Below are positions 1,750-18,378 of a stretch of DNA of 34,497 bases, in pieces; the stretch's first letter is position 1, and each line of letters starts with the position of its first letter. The notes under the pieces were generated by a model. That model was not told where the DNA came from, searched no databases, and saw only the letters and a program-made list of their open reading frames with translations. The DNA lies in contig JAUWCZ010000014.1 in the NCBI GenBank assembly GCA_030609055.1, positions 1-34,497 on the forward strand, read 5' to 3'. Made by a program: the position numbers and the translations under genes. The stretch comes from Chloroflexota bacterium. GTDB taxonomy: Bacteria > Chloroflexota > Anaerolineae > Anaerolineales > UBA11858.

Positions 1750-3198
1750 TTATTCTATTAACTCTTTTTCGGCATTTGCTATTATACGGTTGATTTCATC
1801 CTGCACATTTTCTGAAGGTGGTTCAGGATGATGATTGTCCATGATCCATTTAACTTTTTCGCGGGCATATTCTACAGGATGACGATATTTACCCTTCTCA
1901 TTTATTTGATGGCTAACACTTCGAACCATTGCTGTCCGCATATGTTTCCTAGTGTGTTTTTGACCTAAAAAGTGTCCCCCTGGTTTAACTATATCGATCA
2001 CGTCAACTGCCAATGTCTCCGGGTTGACCTCCATATCCATAAGAGAGTAGCGGGCCCGGTGATAAATATCATCATCCAGAATGATAGCCTCAGGGTATAA
2101 CAATGTGTAAGTATCCCGCAGACCAATTCCAGTGACAATTTCGGCTCCTGCCAGGGCTACCAGGAGGGGGTCGGTGGTCACTTCGGCAGCTGACCGCCAG
2201 CTATCCAATGCGGGGGATTCTGTACCGAAGGCACCACCCAGGGCAGGCATACCCCAATGATGTGCCATCTCTACTGGGGCGTACCGAACACGGGAATCCA
2301 ACGGATACCCCACATAAGCACCCGTTCGAGGATCCGCCCAAGCATGCAGGATTGAATGAAATACTGGTGTTCCAGGATTCGCTAACTGCATCAAAACTGT
2401 GGCGCTAATAACCTCGGCATCACCGATTACCAACGCTCCTGCGTAAGCTGCTGGCGCGGTTGTGCCTAAAGTGGGCATTGACATAACTACTATCGGTATG
2501 CCAGCTTCTCCCAAGACTAAAGCACCCTCGATGGCTTCTTTATCCTGCATAAGGGGAGCAATAGTACATACAATCAGCGATATCGGCGGGCGGCGACGCA
2601 CTTCTTCCAGGCTACCCCGCAATACCGTTGCCATCTCAACCCCATAACGGCAGATAATCTCACCCATCATGGTTACGCTCTGGTAATGTTTAGTATTATT
2701 CTTCCAGGTAACGTCCAATTCGTGCAGTGGCGAGGTAACACCACAATCCTGGGCACTGACCATCGTCCAACTAAATGCCATGGAAGATAGATAGTCATTG
2801 ATACGAGCCATCATACCAACATCATCTTTCCTGGATGCTCGCCGCTCACCTGTCTTAAAATCAATTACATTGTGACCACAGCCATCATTGGTAAAGAAAG
2901 ATATACCTTCCTGGAGTTTTAAATCAAACTCGGGATCGCGCGCCCCGAGAGTGAAATAGCGCGGAATTGTCGACATTGCCTTAAAAACAAGCTCCCGCGG
3001 GATTTTTACAATTTGCGAGTCATCGTCAACCTCCGCACCATGCCCGGCGAAGATAGCCAGCGCCTTTTGAGATGGAAATTGAACCCCTGTCGTCTCAAGA
3101 ACCCTAAGGGTGGCTTCTTGCAAATTATCCAACTGCTGATCATTTAAGAAGGATAATTCTTGAGATGTTCTTATCGGTTCAATTGGTGGACGTTCCAT
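1750..3198 (-). CDS. MttB-family trimethylamine/betaine:corrinoid methyltransferase homologue, non-pyrrolysine (paralogue 2)
   Basis: A 482-residue MttB-family protein, clearly a tandem duplicate of the 253..1713 gene. The two share LDNLQEATLRVLETTGVQFPS near the N-terminus, the TNDGCGHNVIDF block, and the HFLGQKHTRKHMR block near the C-terminus. There is no in-frame amber codon. It starts 11 nt after the stop of the corrinoid protein gene, the tightest spacing in the cluster. It is therefore the best candidate for the dedicated partner of that corrinoid protein. In the region where canonical MttB carries pyrrolysine, this protein reads GTESPALDSWRSA. This departs both from paralogue 3 and from paralogue 1 and suggests a different methyl donor. 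The family assignment is firm; the substrate is not inferable. Confidence 0.88.
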   Translation of the reverse strand: MERPPIEPIRTSQELSFLNDQQLDNLQEATLRVLETTGVQFPSQKALAIFAGHGAEVDDDSQIVKIPRELVFKAMSTIPRYFTLGARDPEFDLKLQEGISFFTNDGCGHNVIDFKTGERRASRKDDVGMMARINDYLSSMAFSWTMVSAQDCGVTSPLHELDVTWKNNTKHYQSVTMMGEIICRYGVEMATVLRGSLEEVRRRPPISLIVCTIAPLMQDKEAIEGALVLGEAGIPIVVMSMPTLGTTAPAAYAGALVIGDAEVISATVLMQLANPGTPVFHSILHAWADPRTGAYVGYPLDSRVRYAPVEMAHHWGMPALGGAFGTESPALDSWRSAAEVTTDPLLVALAGAEIVTGIGLRDTYTLLYPEAIILDDDIYHRARYSLMDMEVNPETLAVDVIDIVKPGGHFLGQKHTRKHMRTAMVRSVSHQINEKGKYRHPVEYAREKVKWIMDNHHPEPPSENVQDEINRIIANAEKELIE

Positions 3199-4026: not shown

Positions 4027-5448
4027 TTAGCCTTCATAACTAAAATCAGGTAAAAAGCGACGCATTATGCGCTCAATCTCCGCCTCAACGCTTGCAGGCA
4101 GCGGTGGGGGTTGATGATTTGCCACGATTTCCTGCGCTTTACGACTGCAAATTTGGTCGATGGTTTCGCCTTTCTCTTTCCAGGTATCATAAGTATCTCG
4201 GCTGATAATCTCAGGATACCAATGACGCCGGTAGTTTTGCAGAGTGTGTGGAGCAGACAAAAAATTTCCCCGGGGAGTAAGCGCCTTAATTAATTCAATT
4301 TCCTCCTTTATGTCGTGCACAGAAATTCCATCCCACATGCGACGTATCCCGGCAATAATCTCGTTATCAAAAATCATCTGCTGATAGGAAATTGCAGATC
4401 CAGCATCTACCGCGCCTACTCCATATATAATGGAAGCACCTTCCTGAAGCAGGGGGATTGCGGTGTTGGTTTTTTCGAAACCAGCTTGAGCATCCAATTC
4501 TTTGGCGTCAGTTGAGAGCCCGCCGCACATAGAATGAATACCATAATAATTTGCCATAATGGCAGCTCCGCTGTTAATCATTCCACGTTCAGGAGCGCCG
4601 AGAGGTAGTAAGCCCGTTTTCATGTCAAGCACTGCAGAGACACTACCATAAATTAATGACGTCTTAGGATATAGATTTTGCAACACCACGATCCAGGCCA
4701 GAATGTCCGTGTTAATAACAATTAATTCACCGAGAAGGGTCACTGGCGCGGACGCTCCTCCCATAGCCATGCTCAACAGAGTAATAGGGACGCCGTATTC
4801 TGCCCATTTAAGCATACAGTTTACATTCTCGGGAGTGAAGTATCCCGGACTGATTGGACAGTACAAGGTGGCAAAGTGGGGTTTTGCATGGAATGCCTTT
4901 TCACCTCCCACAACAGAAAATAACATCTCGGCAGCGGCATCCACGCGATCTGGTGAAAGTGTGCGGTGGACGATGGGTTTGGTAGTATTCCGCAGTAACT
5001 CGGTAATCTCCACCAGGTCTGAGTATTCTCCTTGGTCTGTGGCGGTCACTGTAGGGCGAACAATATCTATCTGAGGAAGGGCATCTTGGATGGCGACTAA
5101 CTGGCAGACATCTTGCCTTGTAGATGATCGATGTTCCCCAGAGTTGAGATCGAATACATTTACGGGGGTCCCAGCTCCCATAAAGCAAGCGTCAATCCCA
5201 AAGTGAGCCAGACTATTCCCCTCCCGGTTGTAGATCTTGACATCCTTAGGCAAGGTCTTAAGGGCAGAATCCAATAAATCAGGTGTAATCCGAACCATCT
5301 GGGATTCCAGATCGACGAGGAATCCCGCAGATGCAAGGCGTGCCAGAACTTTATCGACTGGTACACAAAACCCAACTTTTGTGAGGATGTCTACTGACGA
5401 TTCATGGACAAGATTAGCGATAGTCTCAGAGTGATGTGATTTTCTCAT
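4027..5448 (-). CDS. MttB-family corrinoid methyltransferase homologue, non-pyrrolysine (paralogue 3)
   Basis: A 473-residue MttB-family protein, more distant from paralogues 1 and 2 than those are from each other. It keeps the motif GGLSTDAKELDAQAGFEKT near residues 308-326, the segment that carries pyrrolysine in archaeal MttB but here has only ordinary residues and no in-frame stop. The C-terminus reads GNFLSAPHTLQNYRR. It is separated from the corrinoid protein gene downstream by about 165 nt, longer than other gaps in the cluster. It lies about 50 nt after the Lrp-type regulator. It probably demethylates a different compound from the tandem pair, but this is inference only. Confidence 0.87.
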   Translation of the reverse strand: MRKSHHSETIANLVHESSVDILTKVGFCVPVDKVLARLASAGFLVDLESQMVRITPDLLDSALKTLPKDVKIYNREGNSLAHFGIDACFMGAGTPVNVFDLNSGEHRSSTRQDVCQLVAIQDALPQIDIVRPTVTATDQGEYSDLVEITELLRNTTKPIVHRTLSPDRVDAAAEMLFSVVGGEKAFHAKPHFATLYCPISPGYFTPENVNCMLKWAEYGVPITLLSMAMGGASAPVTLLGELIVINTDILAWIVVLQNLYPKTSLIYGSVSAVLDMKTGLLPLGAPERGMINSGAAIMANYYGIHSMCGGLSTDAKELDAQAGFEKTNTAIPLLQEGASIIYGVGAVDAGSAISYQQMIFDNEIIAGIRRMWDGISVHDIKEEIELIKALTPRGNFLSAPHTLQNYRRHWYPEIISRDTYDTWKEKGETIDQICSRKAQEIVANHQPPPLPASVEAEIERIMRRFLPDFSYEG

Positions 5449-6835: not shown

Positions 6836-8419
6836 TTATTTTCCTTCTGAATCATCAAATCGAAAATGCAAATCACCTACATGTACAAACCAGGGTCTGG
6901 TTTCGAGCAAAGACATCAAAGGACCCGGTGGACAACGGCGGACAGTATTTACCGCCGCATATAATTCTGTCACATGGACATGTCCCTGAGGGTTAAGTTT
7001 GGTCAATTCCCGCACCGTATCAACCACGATTTGTTCAAATGGTGGTGGTTCATCCTGGTTTTTTTCCCAGACCTGATCAACAGGCTCAATATCCGGGATC
7101 ACAATTGCCATTCTCTGGTTATAATCCGAGGAAACGATCTGCTTTAACGTGGCAAATACCAATTCCCCATCAGATCCTACCAGAATCGTACGCATCCAAT
7201 CCTTGGTTGACCGGGAGCTTTTCGTCTCAACAATCACTTCTCCAGGTTCTTTGCCTGGTTTGATAAAGACGATACCTCCCGGAATCAGTCCATTTTTCTC
7301 ATACCATTCCTTCAATCCAGATACATAGCGCTCTTTTCGGACAACCCAACCCGGGAAACGTTCTCCTGTATTCCCATCGATTAACGTAAACCGGATTCGG
7401 GGGGCTTCATACGCGGTTGGAAACAACGGCATGACACGCTCCGATAAAGGAAGTGTTCCCGCCCGCCAATGTGGAAAGATTAATCGAACTTCAACGTTCT
7501 CTTCCACATCCTGGCGGTGATCTTTCCAAAGAGTTAACTCATCATCGAGAGATTTCTCCAAGGAGATCATTTCCTGGGTTAGTGAATCCGGATCATACTC
7601 GATGGGCATGTAGTTGAGAAACAGCGGAGTTTTTTGGACACTCTCCGGTTCCAGGGTTTTTAAGTACCAGGCAACAATACCCGCCGGACCCACTTCATCA
7701 AACCGGGGATCCTCCTGTAATGCCAGGTCTAGAGAAAATTCAATCAAATTTGAATTGTCATCAGCAGGTAAATCCAGATCTTTTACCAAATCAACAGTCG
7801 AAAGCGGACCGCCCTGATTCATATCCAGAACAGCTTCTGCCAGGTTTAAATGCCCTGTATTTACATCCACCAACAATGCTCGCAAAAACCAGCGCCCTGC
7901 AATTTGGACAAAATTCTCAATGCTTGCCAGGCCGATTTCAATTTGCTCTTCCAGCAAATCACTATATTCTCCAATCACAACTTCAGGGTTCAACGAATCT
8001 GCCTGATCAGCCTCCGGAGGTACATTTAAAGTATGGTCATTAATACCCGAAGCAAATTCCCGTTCTTCCCCGCTTTCAAATTCAACCTGGATGACATTGA
8101 ATTGACCCACTTCGGGATTCTCTCCGGAACGAAGGTTGATTACCTCCCCTTTTAGCCACTCATAAGCTGGAAATACTAACTTATTCCCAACCTCATATTG
8201 ATCTTTGGGATAATATATATCATTCCCATCCAGACGTTTCTCTTCCAGCCGGACCTTTTCTCGTGAGATCCGCTCCCCGATCAAGATCGGTATGAGTTCT
8301 TCTGACGTCAGGGGAGTTTCTTTTTCCAGAAGATAATCATATAGAAATGAGATATCCTCTTCTTCCAATTCATATTCCTCCCAGTAATTCTCTCGGAGGG
8401 ACAGTACTGCAGTTACCAT
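6836..8419 (-). CDS. Large unrecognised soluble protein, probably co-transcribed with 6366..6803
   Basis: A 527-residue acidic protein with no family that I can name. Residues 20-60 (ISFLYDYLLEKETPLTSEEL, then ISREKVRLEEKRL) resemble a helix-turn-helix 'gatekeeper' segment. Residues 65-125 look like a small beta domain (FPAYEWLKGEVINLRSGENP, then VIQVEFESGEEREFA). The middle is mostly charged and helical. The last 50 residues (HVHVTELYAAVNTVRRCPPG, then WFVHVGDLHFRFD) look like a second winged helix. No signal peptide or transmembrane stretch is present. The start ATG 8419 follows GAGGT at a usable distance, and a good promoter lies at 8480-8507. Function unknown. The domain arrangement hints at nucleic-acid or transcription-complex binding, by inference only. 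Confidence 0.8.
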   Translation of the reverse strand: MVTAVLSLRENYWEEYELEEEDISFLYDYLLEKETPLTSEELIPILIGERISREKVRLEEKRLDGNDIYYPKDQYEVGNKLVFPAYEWLKGEVINLRSGENPEVGQFNVIQVEFESGEEREFASGINDHTLNVPPEADQADSLNPEVVIGEYSDLLEEQIEIGLASIENFVQIAGRWFLRALLVDVNTGHLNLAEAVLDMNQGGPLSTVDLVKDLDLPADDNSNLIEFSLDLALQEDPRFDEVGPAGIVAWYLKTLEPESVQKTPLFLNYMPIEYDPDSLTQEMISLEKSLDDELTLWKDHRQDVEENVEVRLIFPHWRAGTLPLSERVMPLFPTAYEAPRIRFTLIDGNTGERFPGWVVRKERYVSGLKEWYEKNGLIPGGIVFIKPGKEPGEVIVETKSSRSTKDWMRTILVGSDGELVFATLKQIVSSDYNQRMAIVIPDIEPVDQVWEKNQDEPPPFEQIVVDTVRELTKLNPQGHVHVTELYAAVNTVRRCPPGPLMSLLETRPWFVHVGDLHFRFDDSEGK

Positions 8420-11991: not shown

Positions 11992-12408
11992 TCAATTTTC
12001 GTAAATTGCTTCTAAATCCAAATCTAGATCATTATCGGAGTGGTGTTCTTTTTGACTCTTAACATAATTAATTACCTTATGTAAATCCCACCTGCTGATA
12101 GAGAAGGCTCCATATCCAATCTGCCACTTAAATTGATCATTAAGATTCAGAGATTGATTGATAAACCGTGATGAAACCCCTTTTGATTTCTTTACAAGCT
12201 CAGCAACACATATGGTCGAATGGAATTTGACTGCCAAATGGACATGATCAGGCATACCATTAATTGCCAGAGCTTTGCATCCCAAACCATAAACCTGCCT
12301 TATGATGCTTCTATAGATCTGTCTTTCGATTTGAGGAATAATCCAAGGTGTTCGGTCCCAAGTAGCCCAAACCAAATGTAGATACAAAGCTAACTTCTTG
12401 TTTCCCAT
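11992..12408 (-). CDS. REP-associated tyrosine transposase (RAYT, IS200-like Y1 family)
   Basis: A 138-residue Y1-type HUH nuclease. The HUH motif is H55-V-H57 (GMPDHVHLAV) and the nucleophile is probably Y115 (KVINYVKSQK). It nicks and rejoins single-stranded DNA at hairpins. The start was set at ATG 12408 because AAGGGGG lies 5 nt upstream; the longer reading from 12441 has no ribosome site. There is no accessory TnpB. The gene sits between mirror-image pairs of REP-like hairpins, the arrangement known for RAYT domesticated transposases rather than for a self-mobile IS200. Catalytic residues are intact. It lies between the efp and mutL transcription units. Confidence 0.9.
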   Translation of the reverse strand: MGNKKLALYLHLVWATWDRTPWIIPQIERQIYRSIIRQVYGLGCKALAINGMPDHVHLAVKFHSTICVAELVKKSKGVSSRFINQSLNLNDQFKWQIGYGAFSISRWDLHKVINYVKSQKEHHSDNDLDLDLEAIYEN

Positions 12409-12472
12409 CTTAACCCCCTTTGCTTGATCCATTTGTAACATTAATTTCGAATGATATCAATTGCAAAACCAG

Positions 12473-15107: not shown

Positions 15108-15216
15108 TTTCTATCGCCAAGGATGATTTTCAGGTAGATGGGTAGCAACTCTCACATTCAATACATCCAATAGTTGGGCTGCTAATCCACTTTCTGCAAA
15201 TGATAAGGATAAGTCC

Positions 15217-18200
15217 ATGAGTGAAAATGAGTTTCCTCAGCAAATCAGATTCAGTTACGGCATCAGTTTCGCCCGTGCTGTCACCAAAAGCCTTGCCGTA
15301 ATTCTGGTTATCTCCATCCTGGTCTTGCTGGGGGATACTGTTATTTCCGCAGGTCCAATCGTTCCGATCACCTCCTTGATCCTATCCATTTTCGTAGCAG
15401 CAAATTTACTTGGTTATGTTGAACTCTCAATGAGTGTCCCCCAGGCCGGAGGGGCTTACCAGCTAGTTCAAGCCTGCGAGGAAGGCAACTGGCTGTCATT
15501 TATCACCGGCTGGGCACTGTTGCTGGCAGGAATTTCTGCTGCCGGAATACTGATTCAAGGTTTCGCTCAGCAAATCTCTGCTCTGATTGAAATTCTCGCG
15601 GGAGTATCACTACCTGAAACCCCCTTAGCGGCGGGAATTCTGATCCTTATCACAGCGATTAAACTCCTTCCAATTAGGAAAAAGAGGGAAAGCTACCTCT
15701 TGATCCTGATCCTCGCGGTTATTCTGGTTTTCAGCCTGATTGCCGTTCCCAGAATAAAGTTAGAGTACTTGAGATTAGCAGATACTGATTGGCGAATTCC
15801 CTTTAATCTTTTATTAATCTCATTTATCGGAATAGAAATCACAGCTGGATTTCAGGGAGAAATAACCAAAAGAACAACCAACGCACCTAGAGCTATGTTT
15901 TTGATCCCAATCCTGTCCGGGATTGTTATCGCGTTAATCTCTGCTTTAGTAATTGGTGTTCTACTTCCCATATCTACAGCGAACCTGGTCCAGCCTCTGG
16001 CTGGTTTAGTCGGCACAGTCGCCGGGAAATGGGCTCAGTCAGTTATGTTAATTCTGAGTATTGCGGTTATCCCAATGGCATTAGATCGAGTTATTACTCT
16101 TTTAACCCACCAGGGGTATGCCATGACAAGAGATGGATTCTGGCCTGAAATACTTAAAAGGACCCACCCACGCTCAAACAAACCCATATTCCTGATCATC
16201 TCATTCAGTTTTCTAAGCCTGCTGACTCTGGTCATCCCCCTGCAATCCTTAGCCCGTGTAGGTGGTTTGCTCTATTTGATCGTTTTAATGGCAGTAAACC
16301 TCTCCCTCACCAGGAGAGAGCAAATTACCTCATCCTCCTTTCAACTTCCCATTCACCCCTGGATTCCTGCCTTAGTCCTGGTTTTTGATTTGTTACTTAT
16401 TTTAACTTGGGCAGAATACCTACCAGCAGCTGGATTGCTGCTCTTGATCGGTTTTGTTTTGTTCTTAGGCTACGGAAGGCATCATTGTATCAAGGCAAAA
16501 GAAGGGATCACGGTCTTCAAAGCTCCCCTCGTGGAAGAGAAAACCAGAAAGAGTTTTCGGGTTCTAGTCCCAATTGCTAATCCAGAGACTGCCGAGACTC
16601 TGCTCCACTTAGCCGGTACTCTTGTCCGCCCCCAGGGAGGAAAAGTAATTGCACTCCGTGTGATCACAGTCCCCGGCCAAGTCCCCCTTTCAGAGGGTCG
16701 GTTTCAGGCTCAGAAAGACCGGATACTGCTGGATCGGGCAATTGCCCAAGCGACCAAAGAGGAATTCCGGGTTCAAACGATGACCCGGGTTTCCCGCAGC
16801 ATCTCTGAAGGTATCCTGGATACTGCCCGGGAGGAGAAAGTAGATCAAATTCTACTCGGTTGGCGCGGTGAACCGCGTTCCATCTCCAAGTCAATGGGAC
16901 CGGTGCTGGACCCGATCATCAGGAACGCGCCTTGTGATGTATTAATTATAAAGGGAGATCATTGGCACGAAATCCAAAGCATTCTGGTTCCAACTGCCGG
17001 AGGACCTAACGCCCCAATCGGAGCCAAGTTAGCCTCCTCTCTTTCGCAAAGCTATGGTGCCGCCGTAATTGGTCTTTATGTTCAGGTCGGCCGGGCGTCC
17101 CCCCGCCGTATGGATGAAAATCAACAGATCATTGACAACACTTTCGAGGGGCTTCAATTCCATCAACCACCTGAAAAGAAAGTGATCAGCGCAAATAATG
17201 TTCTGGAAGGAATTCTGAAGGAAGCCGAAGCCTATGATATGGTTATTGTCGGCTCTTCAGAACAGGGATTCATTGACCAATTTGCGTTTGGAAGTATTCC
17301 CCAGAAAATCGCCGCCCAAGCCCCGAATGCATCAGTGATGGTAAAAGGATACAGCGGAACCCCAGAATTCTGGTTCCGTAAATTACTCACTGCTATTTAC
17401 AATCTCTTTCCCACCCTTTCCATAGAAGAGCAACTGGAAGTGCGTGAGGAATTGATTGATGACGCCCAACCGGGTTCAGATTACTTCATGCTGATTGTTC
17501 TTTCCTCTATCATAGCTGCCCTAGGACTACTGCTTAACAGCCCTGCGGTTGTTATCGGCGCGATGTTGGTAGCTCCCTTAATGTCCCCCATCCTCGGATT
17601 TTCACTTGGTATAGTACTTGGTGAAGTTCGATTAATACGGACATCTCTGGAGTCAGTATTCAAAGGAGTGATGGCATCCATTGTTGTAGCAATCCTGGTT
17701 GGATTAATCTCCCCCATCAAGGAGATGACCCCCGAAATCATGGCTCGCACACAGCCAACCCTGCTAGATTTATTCATTGCCCTGGCATCCGGAATGGCAG
17801 GAGCATACGCGGTGAGCAGAAAAGATGTCAGCGCCGCCTTACCCGGTGTGGCAATCGCCGCAGCCCTGGCACCACCGCTAAGCGTGGTCGGTCTCGGATT
17901 AGCAATCGGTAACATGCAGGCGGCAGGTGGCGCCTTGTTATTGTTTATAACCAACCTCATCACCATCAGCCTCGCCGGAGTGATCACCTTCTCCCTGCTA
18001 GGGATTCACCCCTTGAATCTGCAGCCAGAGATAAAGAAGCGGGTCCGGAGAGGGATCACTGGCATTGTATTCCTGGTCTTTTTGATCACCATTCCCCTGG
18101 CGATCATCATGAACGGTATCATTAAACAAACCCGCGAACAAAAGGCGATAGAACGGATTCTGCTTGAGTCCCCCTTTGCGGAAGATATCAACATTCTGGA

Positions 18201-18378
18201 TATTGAAAGGATACAATCCCGGGATAAATTGCTGATCAGCGCCACGATCAGGTCACCAAAACCACTGGATCAACAAAGTGTCGATAATCTGGCAAGGGCT
18301 CTAGAGGAAGAGTTGAGCCGTCCTCTAACTCTGGATATCATCACCCTGCCGGTAATCCGGTCGGAGCAATCTAATTAA
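15217..18378 (+). CDS. Fusion protein: APC-family permease, two Usp domains, DUF389 membrane domain
   Basis: A 1053-residue polypeptide with four recognisable parts. Residues 1 to about 425 are an APC-superfamily amino-acid/polyamine permease (PQAGGAYQLV matches the unwound helix region; about 12 hydrophobic segments). Residues about 445-580 and 586-712 are two universal-stress-protein (UspA) domains; the second ends in the nucleotide-loop-like VGSSEQGFIDQFAFGS. Residues about 736-1000 form a DUF389 (TIGR00341-like) membrane domain with VVIGAMLVAPLMSPILG and ALAPPLSVVGLGLAIG, followed by a soluble tail. The frame is continuous, with a Shine-Dalgarno (AAGGATAAG) before ATG 15217. APC-Usp fusions are known; having DUF389 on the same chain is unusual. 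Transported substrate unknown. Confidence 0.92.
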   Translation: MSENEFPQQIRFSYGISFARAVTKSLAVILVISILVLLGDTVISAGPIVPITSLILSIFVAANLLGYVELSMSVPQAGGAYQLVQACEEGNWLSFITGWALLLAGISAAGILIQGFAQQISALIEILAGVSLPETPLAAGILILITAIKLLPIRKKRESYLLILILAVILVFSLIAVPRIKLEYLRLADTDWRIPFNLLLISFIGIEITAGFQGEITKRTTNAPRAMFLIPILSGIVIALISALVIGVLLPISTANLVQPLAGLVGTVAGKWAQSVMLILSIAVIPMALDRVITLLTHQGYAMTRDGFWPEILKRTHPRSNKPIFLIISFSFLSLLTLVIPLQSLARVGGLLYLIVLMAVNLSLTRREQITSSSFQLPIHPWIPALVLVFDLLLILTWAEYLPAAGLLLLIGFVLFLGYGRHHCIKAKEGITVFKAPLVEEKTRKSFRVLVPIANPETAETLLHLAGTLVRPQGGKVIALRVITVPGQVPLSEGRFQAQKDRILLDRAIAQATKEEFRVQTMTRVSRSISEGILDTAREEKVDQILLGWRGEPRSISKSMGPVLDPIIRNAPCDVLIIKGDHWHEIQSILVPTAGGPNAPIGAKLASSLSQSYGAAVIGLYVQVGRASPRRMDENQQIIDNTFEGLQFHQPPEKKVISANNVLEGILKEAEAYDMVIVGSSEQGFIDQFAFGSIPQKIAAQAPNASVMVKGYSGTPEFWFRKLLTAIYNLFPTLSIEEQLEVREELIDDAQPGSDYFMLIVLSSIIAALGLLLNSPAVVIGAMLVAPLMSPILGFSLGIVLGEVRLIRTSLESVFKGVMASIVVAILVGLISPIKEMTPEIMARTQPTLLDLFIALASGMAGAYAVSRKDVSAALPGVAIAAALAPPLSVVGLGLAIGNMQAAGGALLLFITNLITISLAGVITFSLLGIHPLNLQPEIKKRVRRGITGIVFLVFLITIPLAIIMNGIIKQTREQKAIERILLESPFAEDINILDIERIQSRDKLLISATIRSPKPLDQQSVDNLARALEEELSRPLTLDIITLPVIRSEQSN

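Follow-up and report, generated by a model that had tools for sequence, protein, structure and literature searches.

An APC-Usp-Usp-DUF389 fusion protein of Chloroflexota and a possible pore function for its DUF389 membrane core

Gene and domain layout

The window analysed here is the whole 34.5-kb contig C54 (34,497 nucleotides, JAUWCZ010000014.1) of a draft genome of a Chloroflexota bacterium of the order Anaerolineales (GCA_030609055.1; 2.14 Mb, 123 contigs, about 92% complete). On its forward strand one open frame of 1053 codons, from the ATG at 15217 to the stop ending at 18378, encodes a single polypeptide composed of a permease of the amino acid-polyamine-organocation (APC) fold, two universal stress protein (Usp) domains, a DUF389 membrane core and a C-terminal alpha/beta domain (Table 1). 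Pfam places AA_permease_2 at residues 30-364 (PF13520, E 9.6e-18, 64.7 bits against a gathering cut-off of 27, which assigns the module to the APC superfamily by profile), two Usp stretches behind it (PF00582, E 5e-29, 102.1 bits, over the gathering cut-off) and DUF389 at residues 783-918 (PF04087, E 5e-42, 143.6 bits against a gathering cut-off of 23.9, positions 1-136 of the 137 of the model being covered). Of the NCBIfam profiles TIGR00341 scores over its cut-off and TIGR00271 slightly below its own. Open frame and both profile collections therefore agree on the order given in the preliminary description of this DNA, which had read the locus as one continuous frame joining a permease, two Usp domains and DUF389.

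Table 1. Features of the fusion gene. Positions are those of the window, module limits are structure-based, and TM stands for transmembrane helix, K/R for lysine or arginine, P/T for proline or threonine and HMM for hidden Markov model.
Feature	Residues	Position	Strand	Basis
Shine-Dalgarno-like AAGGA		15205..15209	+	7 nt before ATG, read directly
Whole gene, APC-Usp-Usp-DUF389-C-terminal alpha/beta domain	1053 aa	15217..18378	+	open frame; Pfam; full length kept in relatives
APC-fold permease module, 12 TM	~10-430	15244..16506	+	PF13520; phmmer to GkApcT 5oqt; model match to ApcT 3gia
TM1 site, APC substrate motif lost (AVILVISIL; GAIIGTGIF in GkApcT)	27-35	15295..15321	+	alignments
Usp domain 1	446-580	16552..16956	+	Pfam Usp; DSSP pattern of model
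Usp1 nucleotide-motif remnant, G548-WR-G551-9x-G561-P562, S/T missing		16858..16902	+	sequence
Usp domain 2	586-712	16972..17352	+	second Pfam Usp stretch; own-built HMM; model
Usp2 nucleotide-motif remnant, G679-SS-E682-9x-G692-S693, second Gly replaced		17251..17295	+	sequence
Two amphipathic helices, predicted cytosolic, linking Usp2 to the DUF389 core	715-752	17359..17472	+	DUF389-model helices 2-16 and 22-36; ~6.9 K/R per sequence
DUF389 membrane core, two three-helix halves, second helices broken	753-927	17473..17997	+	PF04087; model; FNT/aquaporin matches
First broken-helix segment of DUF389	776-798	17542..17610	+	near-invariant GAMxxxP; weak internal-repeat partner of 876-898
Second broken-helix segment of DUF389	876-898	17842..17910	+	invariant G877, P886, P887; weak internal repeat
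Seventh DUF389 membrane helix, predicted to lead the chain outside	937-966	18025..18114	+	helix 937-984 in model; K/R-rich loop in front
C-terminal beta-beta-alpha-beta domain, predicted extracytoplasmic	967-1048	18115..18360	+	model; P/T linker and SH3_3 after it in relatives

Distribution and conservation of the fusion

The full-length protein was found in a single open frame in five of the nine other genomes of the genus, with 63-75% identity and residues 1-1050 aligned. Another genome of the genus (G008) carries the last 594 residues only, at a contig start, and in the other three the Usp-Usp-DUF389 protein lacks a permease. The full protein is also present in a single open frame, at 31-35% identity, in three genomes from another family of the same order. 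A scan in which each species was represented by one genome gave further full-length copies, mostly in Chloroflexota but including one Acidobacteriota (L057) and two Planctomycetota (L094, L097), so that the same domain order, which the preliminary description had proposed to look for elsewhere, is present in nearly 30 distinct genomes; L008/L041 and L011/L048 are cut at contig ends and were left out of this count. The closest relatives by this gene are metagenome-assembled genomes (MAGs) named Anaerolineales or Chloroflexi. Among 301 genomes sampled evenly from the phylum, the protein was matched over its full length only in the window's own genome and in G110, and no single place in any of 72,556 plasmid records covered 80% of it. 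A tree of DUF389 was built from 30 fusions (28 distinct), 50 Usp-Usp-DUF389 proteins and 8 DUF389-only proteins; on it the architecture labels cluster far beyond shuffled labels, with few state changes, and on a tree of the APC modules a 99% branch sets the permeases of the fusions to one side. These patterns mark the fusion as old and retained; in the phylum it is uncommon.

Both halves of the protein also occur separately in related Chloroflexota. APC-Usp-Usp proteins, which are known and frequent (PMC3673472, PMC12159084), are found there as proteins of about 770 residues with the order of the first 720 residues of the fusion; they stop after the second Usp domain, without DUF389, and retain the substrate motif of TM1 that is lost in the fusion. 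Usp-Usp-DUF389 proteins of 600-790 residues have the order of the last 600 residues of the fusion, lack the permease and in many cases end in a P/T-rich linker and an SH3_3 domain. The TIGR00341 profile has a different part of about 115 residues before the membrane core, where the fusion has its Usp domains. The separate existence of the parts, together with the draft state of a MAG, is what could be said for an artefact of assembly or sequencing that joined two adjacent genes. Such an artefact has a negligible probability, since the same order recurs in many independent assemblies and lineages, which excludes assembly error and a missed stop alike, and since the fusions group together on both trees. 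No hidden frameshift or stop was found at 17370-17430, the place where one had been thought possible, and single open frames of relatives span this junction; in the closest pair of relatives the non-synonymous divergence (dN) is well under the synonymous divergence (dS) on both sides of it. Intact frames in relatives and dN below dS rule out frameshift, stop and chimera, and a frame of 1053 codons with domain scores far past the cut-offs, kept in relatives, is not due to chance.

Constraint differs between the modules. Within the genus identity is 87-90% in the DUF389 core, 76-82% in Usp1, 70-77% in Usp2, 48-68% in the APC module and 38-68% in the C-terminal domain; at the level of the order the values are 54-60%, 32-37%, 35-40%, 19-23% and 17-22%, respectively. 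In the closest pair (L003-L004) dN rises from 0.018 in DUF389 through 0.032 and 0.047 in the Usp domains and 0.059 in the C-terminal domain to 0.086 in the APC module, with dS of 0.32-0.43 in the main modules. As dN is lower than dS in every module, purifying selection acts throughout and no module is decaying freely. DUF389 is the most conserved module and under the strongest constraint, and the APC module is the fastest-diverging of the large modules, the opposite of what is expected for a catalytic heart. A fusion that is real, ancient and under selection supports a functional tie of DUF389 to the permease fold and the Usp domains.

DUF389 itself is shared by bacteria and archaea; among our control genomes, Methanocaldococcus jannaschii, Haloferax volcanii and Synechococcus elongatus have it. 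The genome of the window has a second, stand-alone DUF389 gene (G000:C87:20680-21426, L002; a 408-residue frame, 29% identity), and Mimivirus AB-566-O17 has a protein annotated as DUF389 (BFVD A0A1X9VNW0, found by fold, Foldseek E 3.2e-6). The literature search returned no paper on the APC-Usp-Usp-DUF389 fusion and no described function of DUF389, the matches examined being to DUF3892 or DUF3893 and the others, by their counts, passing mentions. The fusion therefore appears to be an undescribed order of known domains, old and conserved.

Modules and genomic neighbourhood

The model of residues 11-436 has the APC fold (ApcT, 3gia, Z 43.1, root mean square deviation (rmsd) 2.1 over 393 residues), and the nearest solved relatives by sequence are GkApcT (5oqt, phmmer) and CAT4. 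Canonical APC carriers hold their substrate at the unwound TM1 through a motif of the G-x-G-I-F type. This motif is kept in none of the 25 fusions aligned, against 10 of 11 related APC proteins that lack DUF389; TM6 and the EE-x-K-N-P continuation are eroded in the alignment as well. Likewise, PF13520 scores four APC-Usp-Usp relatives that lack DUF389 at 156-202 bits, the protein of the window at 65 bits and some fusions not at all. The Fisher test on the TM1 motif (p 4e-8) treats related sequences as independent; as one branch of the APC tree separates fusions from non-fusions, the loss is effectively one evolutionary difference and not 25. With the glycine motif of TM1 gone and the divergence the fastest among the large modules, the permease is probably not a canonical amino-acid carrier, a change of specificity being no less possible than a loss of transport. 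The earlier description of the module as a carrier of amino-acid/polyamine type is weakened by the loss of the motif, and an active carrier of that kind is not supported.

The Usp domains had been called nucleotide-binding, a description which their sequences do not bear out as it stands: the G-2x-G-9x-G(S/T) motif is incomplete in each, and neither has the canonical Asp after beta-1. Nucleotide binding may nevertheless occur with such partial motifs, and a Usp protein of A. fulgidus without the second Gly bound dAMP (PMC3673472). The transporter KCC1 binds ATP/ADP in a pocket resembling that of the Usp protein TeaD, and TeaD regulates the ectoine transporter TeaABC (PMC8280820). A diadenylate cyclase is encoded in the same genome, which makes cyclic di-AMP (c-di-AMP) a candidate ligand and nothing beyond that. 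KimA is an APC-fold K+ importer that binds c-di-AMP. Like the fusion, KimA and the KCC/NKCC transporters have an APC membrane domain followed by a Usp-like cytosolic domain, but they lack a second membrane module and share only 12-16% identity with it. Comparison of the whole model gave KimA at Z 36.6 and NKCC1 at Z of about 36, with NKCC1, KCC1 and KimA matched over 500-650 residues. This layout is general to APC-Usp proteins and is not proof of membership in the KimA or SLC12 groups.

The AlphaFold2 model of DUF389 (76 sequences) has a predicted local distance difference test score (pLDDT) of 93.1 and a predicted template modelling score (pTM) of 0.87. It contains, in order, two amphipathic helices, TM1, a broken TM2 made of a short half-helix and a second segment, TM3, TM4, a proline-containing TM5, TM6, a long TM7 and the beta-beta-alpha-beta domain. 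The residues invariant in DUF389 (A767, G770, L771, G781, A782, M783, P787, P847, D851, G859, G877, P886, P887 and N913) fall within the two broken segments or else within or beside TM1, TM4 and TM6. Of the top 50 rows after structural re-alignment, 26 extend over the membrane part, and every one of them is a channel of the formate-nitrite transporter (FNT) family (11) or an aquaporin (15); the rest match the C-terminal domain instead. The best scores are Z 11.2 for HSC (FNT, 3tds; rmsd 4.2 over 199 residues), a value deemed unsafe by the tool for helical bundles, and Z 10.9 for the aquaporin 7w7r (rmsd 3.2 over 170), also below the safe level for helical proteins; FocA has 10.4 and AqpZ 10.3. 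FNT channels and aquaporins share a common fold, the termini of FNT channels are cytosolic, and PflB controls the flux of FocA through the N-terminal helix of the latter (PMC5572259). According to the model the DUF389 core would have in common with them the six-helix fold, N-in/C-in topology and broken helices; the seventh helix and the outer domain are extra, and neither a sequence relation nor a pair of NPA motifs was found in the protein. The Pfam scan of the protein gave no FNT (PF01226) or MIP (PF00230) match, and no convincing solved homologue of DUF389 was found by sequence. Two proteins of other genomes with weak PF01226 matches (L138, L139) are not DUF389 proteins, as the DUF389 profile finds nothing there; by eye they seem Nramp-like. 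A channel-like fold of DUF389 is likely but unproven.

Charge counts suggest an orientation of the core. Lysines and arginines number 6.9 before TM1, 0 in 773-776, 1.7 in 802-808, 1.5 in 832-848 (balanced by 1.5 acidic residues), 1.7 in 867-872, 0.3 in 897-902 and 4.0 in 928-945. Twenty-three of 30 extended relatives have an SH3_3 domain after long P/T linkers at the C-terminus. By the positive-inside rule and these tails the N-terminus and the end of the core are predicted inside, with TM7 leading to a C-terminus outside the cell, and this N-in topology would make the Usp unit cytosolic and join it directly to the N-terminal helices of the core. A P/T-rich linker with a C-terminal bacterial SH3 domain is present in the DUF389 proteins L013, L014, L023-L031, L051, L058, L098 and others. 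The C-terminal domain (residues 250-331 of the DUF389 model) resembles KH domains of ribosomal protein S3 and the C-terminal domain of MamB/CDF; in L073 and L101 it is found in two tandem copies.

In the clade of the window the gene is recurrently preceded by a HAD-family gene and followed by one for an S41 peptidase, which reads as local synteny. Next to Usp-Usp-DUF389 genes without the APC module there are a ClC-type channel gene 4 nt upstream (L033:3309-7500, minus strand), genes for CPA (Na+/H+) exchangers (L088) and an MscS gene (L093); these suggest an ion or osmotic role, as single cases that are too few to count as evidence. Further upstream in L033 (6848-7500) frame-broken APC pieces are found. 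Elsewhere in the window, all on the minus strand, are three genes of the MTTB-type trimethylamine methyltransferase family (253-1713, 1750-3198 and 4027-5448), a 527-residue open reading frame without a Pfam match at 1e-5 (6836-8419), a 149-residue frame of the IS200-like Y1 transposase family adjoining mutL (11992-12441) and a tyrosine recombinase gene of the phage integrase family near the contig end (32193-33155).

A Usp-controlled pore and its alternatives

We propose, with a probability of roughly 0.4, that the fusion is a composite membrane protein in which a channel-like DUF389 pore is controlled by the Usp unit and accompanied by a permease-fold partner. Its conserved core would be the DUF389 pore of aquaporin/FNT shape, with a cytosolic N-terminus bearing the amphipathic helices, six core helices of which two are broken, and a seventh that places the alpha/beta domain outside. 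The cytosolic tandem Usp unit directly before the N-terminal helices of the pore would most likely set it open or closed, through an adenine nucleotide, another cytosolic ligand or dimerisation; Usp-like domains serving the KCC and KimA transporters are the precedent for control by such domains. The APC-fold module would most likely be a specialised partner, either a carrier of altered specificity (for example for an ion or a small osmolyte) or a membrane-embedded sensor, and the whole protein would adjust the flux of small solutes under osmotic, ionic or energy stress. More tentative still is the fuller proposal that DUF389 belongs to the aquaporin/FNT channel fold as a branch not recognised so far and that the protein works as a carrier-sensor-channel machine, with one Usp unit coupling the permease-fold module to the pore.

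Several observations weigh against a Usp-controlled pore. Z scores of about 11 are, according to the tool, within the chance reach of helical bundles, and Foldseek alone gives a weak match (HSC, E 0.03) and ranks CDF/ZnT transporters higher (E about 1e-3, TM-scores 0.16-0.40). With such low TM-scores and a large rmsd the CDF/ZnT fold was rejected for DUF389, and the C-terminal alpha/beta domain with the helix preceding it is the probable source of the resemblance. Profile-profile comparison by hhalign found DUF389 related in sequence to neither FNT nor aquaporins, the probability being 0.3% for PF01226 and 68% for FNT against aquaporin, which served as a working positive control. The internal repeat of DUF389 is weak, 4 of 150 shuffles being equally good. 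The long matches to NKCC1, KCC1 and KimA have an rmsd of 15-27, as the domains are placed differently; for NKCC1 and KCC1 the value is near 25 A, so that these two share the chain order of folds and not the domain arrangement. Finally, across lineages there is no constant neighbour gene that would define a stress or transport operon. The earlier suggestion that DUF389 takes part in solute transport under stress accordingly stands in part: the fusion under selection favours it and the pore-like model adds an independent structural argument for the link to transport, while no operon partner places the protein in stress or transport.

Other readings of the protein are less probable. In one, the APC module moves ions or osmolytes in the manner of KimA or the cation-chloride cotransporters (CCC), and DUF389 belongs to the same osmoregulatory unit as a further path or as a sensor facing outward. 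KimA, NKCC1 and KCC1, with their APC-plus-Usp-like layout, are among the best matches of the whole model, and the ClC, CPA and MscS neighbours and the diadenylate cyclase fit such a role; however, the layout is common to APC-fold proteins with Usp-like tails whatever their cargo and does not fix the substrate, neighbouring genes are mostly unrelated, and the closest relatives by sequence are CAT and ApcT, not CCC or KimA. We regard this reading as doubtful. An active amino-acid or polyamine carrier regulated by nucleotide-binding Usp domains, to which DUF389 is an accessory, would agree with the clear APC fold by structure and by sequence, with the frequency of APC-Usp-Usp proteins and with the purifying selection on the module, but the missing TM1 motif, the eroded TM6 region and a supposedly catalytic module that is the least conserved of the large ones make it unlikely. 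More improbable than these is a membrane sensor that transports nothing, in which both membrane parts act as receptors or scaffolds exchanging signals with the Usp unit and the outer domain. The degenerate permease, the incomplete Usp motifs, the outer domain and the SH3 tails of relatives speak for it, yet the protein lacks an output domain such as a kinase, a cyclase or a DNA-binding domain, and conservation is highest deep in the membrane, in the DUF389 core, whose broken helices are typical of transport proteins.

The channel-like model, the predicted topology and the natural fusion to Usp domains give for DUF389 a concrete transport hypothesis that can be tested. If the proposed Usp-controlled pore is correct, the fusion would be an example from bacteria of a single chain in which two membrane modules answer to one sensor, and it would provide the first testable function for the uncharacterised DUF389 family.

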